A stretch of DNA of 64,000 nucleotides, taken from Hyphomicrobiales bacterium 4NK60-0047b (lineage in GTDB: Bacteria > Pseudomonadota > Alphaproteobacteria > Rhizobiales > HXMU1428-3). The stretch covers positions 62,001 through 126,000 of the forward strand of contig BAABWY010000003.1 in assembly GCA_040367435.1 (NCBI GenBank), written 5' to 3'. Position numbers and translations under genes: made by a program. Under the pieces are notes generated by a model. The model was not told the origin of the DNA. It ran no database searches and saw nothing but the letters and a program-made list of their open reading frames with translations. The number at the start of each line of letters is the position of its first letter. The first letter of the stretch is position 1. This document shows positions 26,995 through 56,605 of this stretch, in pieces.

Positions 26995-27263
26995 CTAGGA
27001 CGTAGACTCATAAATTAACTGCTTTTGGTAAGAGCCAATTTGGTTGTATATTAGGAGCGAAATCGCAGTAAATATGGTTTATTTTCAAGGTTTTGCGACG
27101 CTAGATACGGCCAAATTGGCCTTATCCTACGGACGCTCTCACAAGTCGCGTTTGGCGTCGTCAAACAACTTATATGGGGAATGCCCCCGTATTGCGCTGT
27201 TTTCCTAGCCAATCACGACTTGTGAGGCGCCAAAAGTAGTTAATTTATGAGTTTACGTCCTAG
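26995..27263. mobile_element. MITE-like element, copy 1 (269 bp, uninterrupted)
   Basis: The ends are inverted repeats of 34 bases with two mismatches: CTAGGACGTAGACTCATAAA at the left and its near-complement at the right. Two internal long hairpins fill it: one with arms GCCAATTTGG/CCAAATTGGC, one with arms CTCACAAGTCG/CGACTTGTGAG capped by a GGGG/CCCC pair. No transposase ORF fits. A second copy lies inverted at 40037-40341. The right end lies 22 bases before the bolA ATG. Confidence 0.85.
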
Positions 27264-34900: not shown

Positions 34901-34996
34901 AGTGGCGCTTCAGGTTGCCCACCAGCAACCGCGCTATTAGTGGCGCTTCAGGTTGCCCACCAGCAACCGCGCTATTAGTGGCGCTTCAGGTTGCCC
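34901..34996. repeat. REP-like hairpins in 38-bp tandem
   Basis: Two full units and a truncated third, starting at 34901, 34939 and 34977. Each has GCGC/GCGC as outer stem and GGTTGC/GCAACC as inner stem around CCACCA (first hairpin 34905-34934). Confidence 0.85.
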
Positions 34997-35004
34997 GCTT
35001 TTCT

Positions 35005-35297
35005 GAGCTTCAGATGCCCACAAGCATCCGCAAAACAACCGCGCTTTCTTGGCTGCGCTTCAGATACCCACAAAGCATCCGCAAAACAACCGCGCTTTCT
35101 TGGCTGCGCTTCAGATGCCCACAAGCATCCGTAAAACAATCGCGCTTTCTTGGCTGCGCTTCAGATGCCCACAAGCATCCGTAAAACAATCGCGCTTTCT
35201 TGGCTGCGCTTCAGATGCCCACAAGCATCCGTAAAACAATCGCGCTTTCTTGGCTGCGCTTCAGATACCCACTAAGCATCCGCAAAACAACCGCGCT
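35005..35297. repeat. REP-derived 50-bp tandem array
   Basis: Six units of 50-51 bp start near 35005, 35055, 35106, 35156, 35206 and 35256. Each has the GATGC/GCATC (or GATAC) hairpin followed by a TAAAACAAT-type spacer before the closing GCGC. Units three to five are virtually identical. The right end overlaps the stop codon of scoB (35296-35298). Confidence 0.88.
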
Positions 35298-37883: not shown

Positions 37884-39995
37884 CTATTGCAAGTCTTTTA
37901 CAACCCGAAAGCCTAGTGTGATTGTTCTATCTGTTGGTTTTGTGAATTGCCTATTCCATGATGTCACTGATGGGACGCTTTGTAACCAACTGCCGCCACG
38001 GTGGATGCGGTTTGCACATGAGCCATGATTGCGATTGTTTGAGATTATCCAAGCGTCTCCATTTGTAGGTGCGCCTTTATAATCATAATGGACGCAATCT
38101 TCAGTCCACTCTCCGACATTGCCGTACATATCATATACACCCCATGGATTGGCTTTAAACCCACCGACTTTAGAGAGAACTTTTACGCCGTCTCTACATG
38201 TTTTATTGCGCCATTTTACTTTGGTTTCAGCAGCTGCGTGATTAGAAAACTGGCACAAGAAACTCACTCTATTTCCATAATGCCAATTTCTTTGACGCCC
38301 AGCTCTTGCGGCGAACTCCCATTCGGCTTCTGTTGGTAATCTATAGCCACCGCTTGGGATTTGCCTGTTGAGCCACTTCACATATTCTTTGGCATCATAC
38401 CAGCTCACACATGTTACCGGGTAATTCAATTTGTAAGGCAGGCCGTTTTTTTGATAATTGCGGAATTTTCTATATTTGCCGCGCCCTTTTTCATTGGTCC
38501 AACAAAGACTTCCTGGGTCATGTCCTGATTGTTTGATGAAGGCATCATATTGCTTGATGGTGATTTCATGCACACCAATTGCGATTTGGCGACTGATATT
38601 CACTTTATGTATGGGCAAGGCGTATTGATGCTGCCCTTTTCGTTTATCTTTCCAGCCCATAGAGAATTGTCCGGTTGGCAATACAACCATTTTGGGGCAT
38701 TCGCCGCATTCTTGCAATCTTTCTCCATGTTGGTAGGAGCGTGTTTTGGGTTTCTTTATTTCTTTTGGCGTTACCACTGCCACTTCTTTTTCTTCTAACG
38801 CTTTGATACGGGAATATTCGCGGTATTCTGCGTGCCTCAGTAATTCCAAAATCCGACGGGCTTCAGCGATATATTTGCCTCTTGGGTATTTATGAATGTA
38901 AGCTTCGACTTCTAAAGAGCGCCTTGAACCTCTCACCTCACTCCAGAGCTTATCATCAGCATCTTTGACGACGAGGGGTTTTTCTTTATCAGCTTTAATG
39001 GTGTCTTTATTTTTTAGCTGGATGAGTTTTAGTCTAGCGATTGAAGAATAGCGCCCTGTTGGATGTTCTTTTAGATAGAACTCAAAGTCACTGCTCTTGT
39101 TTGATTTTTCAATGGCCTGCCATAGGATTTCATCAGCATCAGCAACTGTATTTTTTTCACTTCGCTTGCCTGGCTTGAAGAAGAAATCACCTCTTAGCTC
39201 ATCATAATAAGAGGGGTATTGTTTATGTGCTCCGCCTTCGGCTGTTCTTGCTAAATTTTCAACTTCAGAGCGCAACCTTTTGGCAACCCGAACAATTTGC
39301 AAGCCTTCCTCTTTCATGAGGGGAATGAGTTTTCTTGTATAAACTGAATTTGGGTGAGGATCATCATCGCTTAAACGATCAAGTGCTTCCTGACCGACAC
39401 CAGCTGAATACATTACAAAGGTTCCCTCTGGCGGAGCGGAAGTGCGCCCTAATCCTATTGACCGTCCAATGGACCTAGTGCCTTTGCGAGGGAAAGGGTT
39501 ATTTCGGCAAGCATCAAGAATGAGAATGCTCACTCGCACGCGCTTGTCTTGCAGGGATTGAATGATTTCATTTTCTGAAAAAGCTTCTCTTGTGATGAAG
39601 CCTTCCTGGCCGGGGGCTACTTTTGGAACGTCTGTTGGCAAGAGGTAATTTTCCCCTCTGACAGAGATGCCGTGCCCAGAGAAAAAGAACAGCACTTCAT
39701 CGCCTTTTTCAATCTCATTGGTGAATTCTGCCAAAGCAGCGTTCATAGACCGCCTGTTAAGATTGCTGTGCAAATGAGTTTGGAAACCAAGATCATTTAA
39801 GGTGTTTGAGATGGCATCAGCATCGTTTACCGCCTTTTTTAATGGAGTGACATTTGCGTATAGGTCATTGCCAATGATTAAGGCTAAGCGCTTTGCGTGA
39901 ACATGAGTTAAATTTGTCGTCAAGGTTGAGGCAAATAACAGTGCAAATGTAAGATATTTAACAGATAAAGTTTTTAGCAATTTGAATTTTATCAT
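37884..39995 (-). CDS. Caspase-like/SUMF1 fusion protein, exported
   Basis: A 703-residue protein with an N-terminal signal segment (about 10-34), a peptidase C14 caspase-like domain (about 35-280) with the catalytic dyad H108 (FFFSGHG) and C163 (LDACRNNPF), two tandem repeats of about 45 residues (each WxxxxxS...YPxGxYxxxAR), and a C-terminal formylglycine-generating-enzyme-like SUMF1 domain (about 430-700, with YRLPTEAEWEFAARAG, DMYGNVGEWTED and HRGGSW). The two active-site cysteines expected after GGSW are absent, so the SUMF1 part is more likely a binding module. The ATG at 39995 has GGGAGAG upstream; a longer frame adds seven residues. Confidence 0.85.
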   Translation of the reverse strand: MIKFKLLKTLSVKYLTFALLFASTLTTNLTHVHAKRLALIIGNDLYANVTPLKKAVNDADAISNTLNDLGFQTHLHSNLNRRSMNAALAEFTNEIEKGDEVLFFFSGHGISVRGENYLLPTDVPKVAPGQEGFITREAFSENEIIQSLQDKRVRVSILILDACRNNPFPRKGTRSIGRSIGLGRTSAPPEGTFVMYSAGVGQEALDRLSDDDPHPNSVYTRKLIPLMKEEGLQIVRVAKRLRSEVENLARTAEGGAHKQYPSYYDELRGDFFFKPGKRSEKNTVADADEILWQAIEKSNKSSDFEFYLKEHPTGRYSSIARLKLIQLKNKDTIKADKEKPLVVKDADDKLWSEVRGSRRSLEVEAYIHKYPRGKYIAEARRILELLRHAEYREYSRIKALEEKEVAVVTPKEIKKPKTRSYQHGERLQECGECPKMVVLPTGQFSMGWKDKRKGQHQYALPIHKVNISRQIAIGVHEITIKQYDAFIKQSGHDPGSLCWTNEKGRGKYRKFRNYQKNGLPYKLNYPVTCVSWYDAKEYVKWLNRQIPSGGYRLPTEAEWEFAARAGRQRNWHYGNRVSFLCQFSNHAAAETKVKWRNKTCRDGVKVLSKVGGFKANPWGVYDMYGNVGEWTEDCVHYDYKGAPTNGDAWIISNNRNHGSCANRIHRGGSWLQSVPSVTSWNRQFTKPTDRTITLGFRVVKDLQ

Positions 39996-40036
39996 GTTTT
40001 TTCTCTCCCAATGCACTTCAGCTAGTCCGCTAGCAA

Positions 40037-40341
40037 CTAGGCCGTAAATTCATAAATTAACTACTTTTAGCGCCTCACAAGCCGCGTTTGGCTAGTAAAA
40101 CAGCGTAATACGGGGTCATTCCCCCGTATAAGGCTTTTTGTTTGCGCTTCAGTGCCCACTAGCAACCGCGCTTGACGACGCCAAAGGTGGCTTGTGAGAG
40201 CGTCCTAAAGATAAGGCCCATTTGGTCGTATCTAGCGTCGCAAAGCTTTGAAAATAAGCCATAATTCCTGCAGTTTTGCTCCTAATATACAACCAAATGG
40301 GTTCTTACCAAAAATAGGTAATTTATGAGTTTACGGCCTAG
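40037..40341. mobile_element. MITE-like element, copy 2 (inverted, carries a REP insertion)
   Basis: The ends start CTAGGCCGTAAATTCATAAA and finish in the complement, with CTAG at both tips. The interior matches the reverse complement of copy 1, including the GAGCGTCC and GGGG/CCCC hairpins. It is 36 bases longer, almost entirely because a REP-like hairpin (40144-40171) with a possible TTG duplication is inserted in one arm. Confidence 0.85.
40144..40171. repeat. REP-like hairpin inserted in the MITE
   Basis: The unit has GCGC/GCGC outer stem, TTCAG, loop region GCCCACTAGC and AACC. TTG lies on both sides, whereas the empty site in copy 1 has TTG once, before ACGACGCC. Confidence 0.8.
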
Positions 40342-47399: not shown

Positions 47400-47463
47400 A
47401 CGATATTTCCTTTTTAGTGGCGTTTTTTCTCTCACGGCTATTCCAAGTGTTTAATCGTGCATG

Positions 47464-47547
47464 AGCCTCCGAGGGGCGGCGCTAAGCGCCGAACGCCTAT
47501 GGCGCTATGTCCCCCCAGCCAGAAAAGGGCTGGGCTCCTTCTTCGGG
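47464..47547. repeat. Multi-hairpin dispersed element, copy A
   Basis: Conserved start GCCTCCGAGGGGCGGCGC, a GGCGC/GCGCC hairpin with TAA loop, a CGCC/GGCG hairpin, a conserved ATGTCC, a CCAGCC/GGCTGG hairpin, and CTCCTTCTTCGGG. Flanked on the left by CTCTCACGGCTATTC. Related copies are at 56352 and 56531. Confidence 0.7.
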
Positions 47548-47597: not shown

Positions 47598-47678
47598 GTA
47601 CTTCAGATGCCCACAAAGCATCCGTAAGAAGCACCCACGCTATTTTTTGCGCTTCAGTTGCCCACAAAGCAACCGCGC
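47598..47678. repeat. Two REP-like hairpins
   Basis: The first (47598-47627) is an imperfect GATGC/GCATC unit; the second (47649-47678) is a good unit with GCGC/GCGC and GTTGC/GCAAC stems around CCACAAA. They lie between the RNase T2 and oligopeptidase B genes. Confidence 0.75.
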
Positions 47679-56308: not shown

Positions 56309-56351
56309 TCTCTCTTATATCTCTCACGGCTATTCTGCAGCTGAAGCTACA

Positions 56352-56430
56352 GGCCTCCGAGGGGCGGCGCTAAGCGCCGGACGCAAAGGCGTCATGTCCT
56401 GACGCCGAAATGGCGTCACTCCTTCTTCAG
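56352..56430. repeat. Multi-hairpin dispersed element, copy B
   Basis: Like copy A: GCCTCCGAGGGGCGGCGC, a GGCGC/GCGCC hairpin, then GACGC/GCGTC, ATGTCC, TGACGCC/GGCGTCA and CTCCTTCTTC. The outer arms GCTGAAG (upstream) and CTTCAGC (end) can pair, closing a cloverleaf-like fold. The leading CTCTCACGGCTATTCTGCAG is also shared. Confidence 0.75.
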
Positions 56431-56530
56431 CTAGGTTGACCTTATAAATTTTCTTACTAAATGTACACTTCTCATCCAGTGACGGAGTTTGCACTTGTTT
56501 TCTCGCGGTTATTCTGCAGTTGAAGTTGCA

Positions 56531-56605
56531 GGCTTCCGAAGGGCGGAGCTAAGAGCTGGGCTGCGCCATGTCCCCCAGCCCGAAGTGGACTGGGTTCCTT
56601 CTTCG
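56531..56605. repeat. Multi-hairpin dispersed element, copy C
   Basis: GCTTCCGAAGGGCGGAGC opens it; compared with copies A and B the CCT/AGG pair becomes CTT/AAG, which keeps the pairing. ATGTCC, a CCAGCCC hairpin and TTCCTTCTTCG follow. It lies 100 bases past copy B. Confidence 0.7.

Follow-up and report, generated by a model that had tools for sequence, protein, structure and literature searches.

REP Hairpins Inserted into MITEs and Other Hairpins Show a Replication-Linked Orientation in a Hyphomicrobiales Genome

The Locus and Its Two MITE Copies

The window, meaning the whole 64,000-nucleotide stretch analyzed, comes from Hyphomicrobiales bacterium 4NK60-0047b, whose assembly is rated 99.67% complete and consists of 26 contigs. 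It carries two copies of a MITE, the first interrupted by a REP unit and the second uninterrupted (Table 1). Measured from CTAG to CTAG, they are 36 bases apart in length (305 vs. 269), and the termini of copy 1 show a 91% inverted match to each other. A preliminary description had read this pair as the filled and the empty state of one site, and both states were confirmed in these places. All 17 REPs found in the window lie on the + strand. A 710-aa ORF on the minus strand (37884-40016), which appears to encode a caspase-like peptidase joined to a sulfatase-modifying-factor domain, adjoins the MITE.

Table 1. Repeat features of the window; positions are counted from its first base.
Feature	Position	Strand	Remarks
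Inserted REP unit, ~40 nt	40134..40173	+	Edges from 62 isolated copies; BLAST matches over query 97-137
MITE copy 1	40037..40341	+	CTAG...CTAG, 305 bases; interrupted by the REP unit; inverted terminal repeats of ~32 bases
MITE copy 2	26995..27263	-	269 bases, uninterrupted; no counterpart in the sister genome (precise empty site)
Uninterrupted site in copy 2	27164..27168	-	Reads TTGTT (minus strand); replaced in copy 1
Probable older REP remnant (GCACTTCAGCTAGTCCGCTAGCAAC)	40013..40037	+	MITE apparently inserted in its right arm; degenerate REP there in the sister
REP array, 7 copies, all +	34906..35230	+	End approximate
Two further REP copies	47600..47675	+	End approximate
P element	47429..47543	+	C3 109429-109543
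P element	56321..56428	+	C3 118321-118428
P element	56501-56603		

The alignment of the MITE family comprised 14 copies: the two of the window and 12 from the same genome and four sister genomes. The hairpin occupies the focal spot in copy 1 only. Among the 13 other copies, 12 can be aligned there, and none is filled; two of these (G006:C188 and G006:C229) lie on contigs that end just past the spot, with read-through across it. The remaining copy, G006:C195, is too diverged at the spot to be scored, and a partial copy, L003, which ends short of it, was left out of the alignment. A MITE in G003:C3 was considered as an orthologous empty copy and set aside as a paralogue, as its flanks do not match. 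The preliminary description, which took the pair as the record of a REP movement, had named the hairpin's presence in most other MITE copies as the sign of a loss from copy 2. With none of the 12 carrying it, the hairpin in copy 1 is a gain, and the movement is borne out. Loss by deletion from copy 2 is extremely improbable: no support for it was found, and against it stand both the 12 hairpin-free copies and the presence of the hairpin at many unrelated places.

The contig of the window (C3) is largely collinear with contig C1 of the sister genome G003, and the comparison of the sister loci proposed earlier was carried out: both MITEs of the window are absent from the orthologous loci. At the locus of copy 2, the sister reads TTATATA-CTAG-ACGAAA where the window has CTAG-element-CTAG, a TA duplication within CTAG. 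At the locus of copy 1, the sister has, in place of the MITE, a degenerate REP, five edits from the core. When the flanks of copy 1 are joined without the MITE, they come within six edits of the REP core; 0 of 150 shuffles are as close, against 4 of 150 random stretches of the window, three of which lie at distance 1 and are probably real REPs. Hence, the MITE of copy 1 probably sits in the remnant of an older REP. The likely order of events would be an old REP, then an IS630/Tc1-type MITE inserted in its right arm with a TA duplication, and finally a young REP in one arm of the MITE, the oldest layer being the moderately supported one.

The Inserted Unit

The hairpin reported at 40144-40171 is present, but its extent had to be revised: the conservation profile of isolated copies delimits a larger unit of about 40 nt, at ~40134-40173. 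The unit was defined from 51 initial copies and then from 256 non-redundant copies out of 283, 62 of the 256 being isolated. In the 62, information is close to zero 14 nt before CTTCAG and amounts to 0.27-1.4 bits, mostly T, at 13 to 8 nt; on the 3' side, conservation falls to background ~5 nt after AACCG. From 5' to 3', the unit consists of a T-run, an outer arm GCGC, TTCAG, an inner stem with a CCAC loop, a second outer arm GCGC and a T. Its outer-stem pairs are Watson-Crick in 213, 207 and 200 of the 256 copies, above all 500 shuffles in a comparison uncorrected for relatedness. Taken by itself, the 40-nt unit has no unusual stability (z -0.04).

The family is abundant. The hairpin alone matched at least 48 other places, with 40 of 161 candidates scored, and its 17-base core, searched genome-wide with up to two mismatches, gave 367 matches (184 forward, 183 reverse) against two (one and one) for a reversed control pattern. 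None of the 73 REP copies of the 391-kb contig lies within an ORF of at least 150 aa; on the sister contig, 2 of 53 do. At the 5' foot, GT[AG]G occurs in 49 of the 256 copies vs. 4 of 256 in a control window, and in 16 of the 62 isolated copies, while CGTC is found in 1 of 256 on one strand and 2 of 256 on the other. No fixed target tetranucleotide for REP insertion was found. A GCT target motif was also considered and rejected, since conservation within the unit extends to the T that follows the right arm.

With these edges, the TTTG to the left of the hairpin falls inside the conserved REP unit and does not belong to the MITE. Consequently, the TTG on both sides, previously proposed as a possible 3-bp target duplication, is not one: the left TTG is part of the T-run segment of the REP, and 4-5 MITE bases, TTGT(T), are missing from the filled site relative to the uninterrupted TATAAG-TTGTT-TGACG. 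A standard duplicative transposition that doubled a 3-bp TTG target is, hence, very unlikely. It has in its favor that TTG does flank the bare hairpin on both sides; apart from the position of the left TTG within the unit, it would require an extra, unexplained insertion of GCTTT, and no such duplication occurs at the other two REP-in-MITE sites.

REPs lie within the MITE family at three places, the focal one and two others in sister species. In G006:C147, a REP of opposite orientation stands between TCTAGC and GTCGC of the MITE; the host has lost zero or four bases, depending on whether TAGC is assigned to the host or to the insert. G005:C42 carries a degenerate REP at the same MITE site. In G006:C195, the REP is located between TTTT and GCTTCC of the MITE.

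REPs inside P Elements and Other Hairpins

A second repeat family, named P, is ~115 nt long, contains four hairpins and hosts REPs at other places. In P copies, the linkers are constant and the arms variable (e.g., CCAAGCGC/GCGCTTGG or CTGCAGC/GCTGCAG), and the 5' edge is T-rich in 34 copies. Many REPs are located inside P elements and also inside the loops of other REPs; hairpin 1 of P holds one at C3:285748, for example, and hairpin 4 one at C3:234408-234445 on the reverse strand. Among the REPs of hairpin 1, one common class replaces the 5' arm and shares one junction; in our reading, this class may go back to a single insertion that multiplied together with P. Some REPs in P elements may also have come through exchange between P copies.

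One orthologous P copy (C3:39772-39925 vs. sister C1 ~374,820) has wholly different downstream hairpin arms in the two species, as if arms had been swapped among P copies. A third hairpin element, a T-run followed by GATCAGCTTATCCGT...GGGCTGATC, was seen in hairpin 2 of P at C3:168520-168560 and in two P copies of the sister stretch.

The preference for hairpin hosts was assessed independently of the family, from the pairing of the flanks just outside the unit compared with 200 shuffled pairings. Complementary flanks of at least 6 bp surround 22 of the 256 copies vs. a mean of 4.8 in the shuffled pairings, none of which reaches 22; controls at distant offsets gave 7 and 3, the chance level. 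In 11 of the 256 copies, the REP is enclosed by matching halves of a host REP, with 1.1 expected (shuffle maximum 6; 0 of 2000 reach 11); in two cases, the enclosing halves are unlike. This stricter recount replaced a looser one (14 vs. 2.0), which had admitted three hosts with unlike halves. After removal of these 14 cases, stems of at least 6 bp remain in 14 of 242 copies, where 300 shuffles average 4.0 and never exceed 10; for stems of at least 7 bp, there are four vs. a mean of 1.0, but the shuffle maximum is 6. REPs, thus, sit inside other hairpins more than chance predicts. Insertion into a loop was discarded for the focal site, which lies in a paired arm of the predicted MITE fold and not in a terminal loop.

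Orientation Relative to Replication

The strand bias of both families is nearly absolute. On the 391-kb contig, 72 REPs are on the + strand and one on the - strand; on the collinear stretch of the sister, the numbers are 51 and 2. P elements identified by profile are 25+/0- and 22+/0-, respectively, all 47 hits being on one strand, and looser motifs give 62+/4- and 52+/3-. The ORFs of at least 150 aa on the 391-kb contig, in comparison, are balanced (140+/133-), and + REPs occur in all four contexts of flanking gene orientation (34, 21, 11 and 6). The orientation of the REPs tracks replication, independently of gene direction.

The link to replication was assessed from skews whose transcription and replication components were separated at four-fold degenerate sites. 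Contig C3 of the genome (G000) was taken whole, along with 20-120 kb each of C1, C2 and C4-C8, in stretches picked partly where REPs were already known and not by skew. On all eight contigs, GC and TA skew have a replication component whose sign matches the REP orientation, and 158 of 162 copies (~97%) agree with it, with four discordant. Counted by clusters (n = 82), 78 are concordant, two mixed and two discordant. Among 20 individual 20-kb stretches, all agree in the TA component and 19 in the GC component; in the exception, L264, GC has the wrong sign and TA agrees. The T-run strand of the REP is the G/T-rich strand. By established knowledge, the G/T-rich strand is the leading strand, which places it as the template on which the lagging strand is made. 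Unseparated GC skew was unsuitable, being weak and changing sign along the contig; the signal appears only after transcription has been separated at four-fold sites. The orientation is unchanged on both sides of dnaA and hemE, and neither the origin nor the terminus was located.

As a separate observation, the GC replication component at four-fold sites amounts to 0.26-0.39 in C1, C2 and C4 vs. 0.04-0.16 in C3 and C5-C8. Some of the low-skew stretches are rich in REPs, C7 having 29 in 40 kb, for instance; the stretches had been picked partly around REPs.

Both skews are also positive, oriented by the REP, in BQJJ (26 loci), JAEPQF (23), JAJFHW (14), JAJFHX (6 of 7 oriented) and JANQQH (7), where BQJJ is G003 and, therefore, not independent of the sister contig. 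With random flips, the TA skew was reached in 0 of 2000 trials for BQJJ, JAEPQF and JAJFHW, and p was 0.018 for JAJFHX and 0.0095 for JANQQH. The polarity was not seen in Hyphomicrobium bin.114 (six loci, 0.000 and -0.039) or in Ga0077537 (three loci, -0.045 and -0.106). In the remaining ten genomes, with one or two loci apiece, the signs are mixed or the loci have no orientation. Pattern matches in Jiangella, Granulicella, Pseudovibrio and a betaproteobacterium may be due to chance (about one expected by our estimate) and carry no weight in the claim of polarity.

A polarity of this kind could also be produced by selection, with REPs inserting both ways and the wrong orientation being removed because the hairpin serves as a polar signal. 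KOPS or AIMS-like motifs act as such signals, and skews this extreme are otherwise known for selected polar motifs, which speaks for this explanation. Exact, presumably young, copies also make up three of the four discordant REPs vs. 48 of the 158 concordant ones on the sampled contigs of G000; the discordant copies are too few to reveal purging over time. Selection is nevertheless improbable, because the unrelated P family shows the same polarity by profile and by motif.

Search for an Enzyme

Neither a Y1_Tnp (RAYT) transposase nor a reverse transcriptase (RVT_1) was found in the genome, and DDE_3 (PF13358) transposases had no match there or in any of the eight genomes of the genus. Y1 is present in one of these eight, G003, with two genes (L087 1465-2130 and L088) flanked by a different hairpin. 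The L087 gene lies amid repeats with the hairpin AATTACGGTTACTGTCACCGTAATT, and together they look like a separate RAYT-like system; the RAYT of G003 was, accordingly, rejected as the mover of this REP. Among the genomes reached with a 20-base REP pattern, 3 of 14 have Y1 genes, and the REP core was found beside the Y1 gene in none of ten Y1-bearing loci (~2-3 kb each). The A-run on the opposite strand of the REP is compatible with an oligo(A)-tailed hairpin RNA. Movement through such an RNA was rejected, given that RVT_1 was found in only two of the eight genomes of the genus and not in this one. The GTGG foot in about a fifth of the copies could be the trace of a RAYT past. Any enzyme that moved the REPs may have been lost, may act from elsewhere or may be of a kind outside those searched.

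Possible Mechanisms of Insertion

The reading preferred here, held tentatively, is that REPs insert through a single-strand reaction like that of IS200/IS605, into the lagging-strand template. Such insertion would produce no recognized target duplication and, in the focal case, would cost the host a few bases; polarity and hairpin preference would both arise at insertion itself. Taken together, the lack of duplication, the hairpin hosts and the strict polarity speak for a single-strand event on this template. IS200/IS605 elements are not known to make a target duplication, and the fixed ends of the REP would fit a reaction of their type, as would the sharp, discrete edges of the unit in the 62 isolated copies.

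Several observations speak against this reading. The genome has no detected Y1 transposase, the only two Y1 genes found in the genus, both in G003, have a different hairpin beside them, and the GT[AG]G foot that RAYT substrates should carry is present in only 49 of 256 copies. The focal insertion falls in an arm of the MITE that is predicted to be paired; the common class in hairpin 1 of P may go back to one insertion spread with P, and other REPs in P may stem from exchange between P copies. As for polarity, oriented skew is all but absent in Hyphomicrobium bin.114 and has a weak opposite sign in Ga0077537, the GC component of L264 has the wrong sign, and one REP orientation extends over both sides of dnaA and hemE.

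Template switching at the fork is a possible explanation, on the unlikely side: a lagging strand stalled at a hairpin would copy a REP elsewhere and return a few bases further on, with no transposase involved. Polarity and hairpin preference would then both be supplied by the fork. The missing enzyme, neither Y1 transposase nor reverse transcriptase having been found in the genome, and the loss of 4-5 host bases with no target duplication at the focal site fit this process. A microhomology of two bases is also possible at the right junction, in our reading, whole hairpin arms have been exchanged between P copies at one orthologous locus, and tandem arrays differ in copy number between the two sister genomes. 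However, the unit edges are sharp and common to the isolated copies, whereas ends made by template switching should vary. A more sweeping reading is doubtful: in Hyphomicrobiales, a replication-coupled process independent of any transposase would put whole hairpins (REP, P and the third type, all T-rich at the 5' edge) into other hairpins on the lagging-strand template, and palindromes nested in this way would grow recursively while keeping a fixed replication polarity.

Comparison with Known Systems

Like the GTAG-tagged REPs and REPINs associated with RAYT (TnpA-REP), the REPs described here are short, imperfect palindromes of high copy number, intergenic and present as singles and in arrays. 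They share with GTAG REPs a GTGG at the 5' foot, but only in a minority of copies; ~81% are untagged, and no RAYT was found in the genome. Unlike in REPINs, the arrays are head-to-tail in one orientation and not inverted pairs. The near-absolute replication polarity also sets them apart from GTAG REPs and REPINs.

The host MITE resembles the IS630/Tc1 type in its length of 269-305 bases, inverted repeats of ~32 bases and TA duplication within CTAG at the orthologous empty site. It differs from MITEs accompanied by a related transposase, as no DDE_3 was found in the eight genomes of the genus.

Hairpins and a strand polarity of this sort are what IS200/IS605 elements would lead one to expect: the excerpted text of PMC6006769 documents that IS608 and ISDra2 insert into the template of the lagging strand. 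In contrast to these elements, the 40-nt unit has no room for a transposase gene, no Y1 was found in the genome, and no fixed target tetranucleotide was found. Palindromes inserted into one another have been described in Volvox organelle DNA (PMC2670323, in excerpt) and merged short hairpins in the GC clusters of yeast mitochondrial DNA (PMC4478555, in excerpt); the REPs reported here are bacterial and chromosomal, with a replication polarity. In a literature search covering titles and the beginnings of abstracts, no description of this REP family or of a replication-strand polarity of REPs was found.

A further comparison is with the CGTC and untagged REP-like families of Di Nocera et al. (2013; PMC3733652). 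In the excerpted parts of that article, CGTC REPs are palindromic, alphaproteobacterial and without a dedicated transposase, and REPs within palindromes are on record for GTAG-15, GTAG-23 and the CGTC-1 elements of H. neapolitanus. The present family is likewise palindromic and inserted within palindromes; it lacks the CGTC tag and is hosted by several repeat families, MITEs and other REPs among them. The same excerpts raise, for the CGTC and untagged families, the question of how REPs spread without a RAYT. Here, the MITE, P and REP hosts supply empty-site references for such movement, and a replication polarity of 97% that does not depend on gene direction suggests that insertion takes place at the fork. 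Together, replication polarity and empty-site hosts make the spread of REPs without a RAYT testable.
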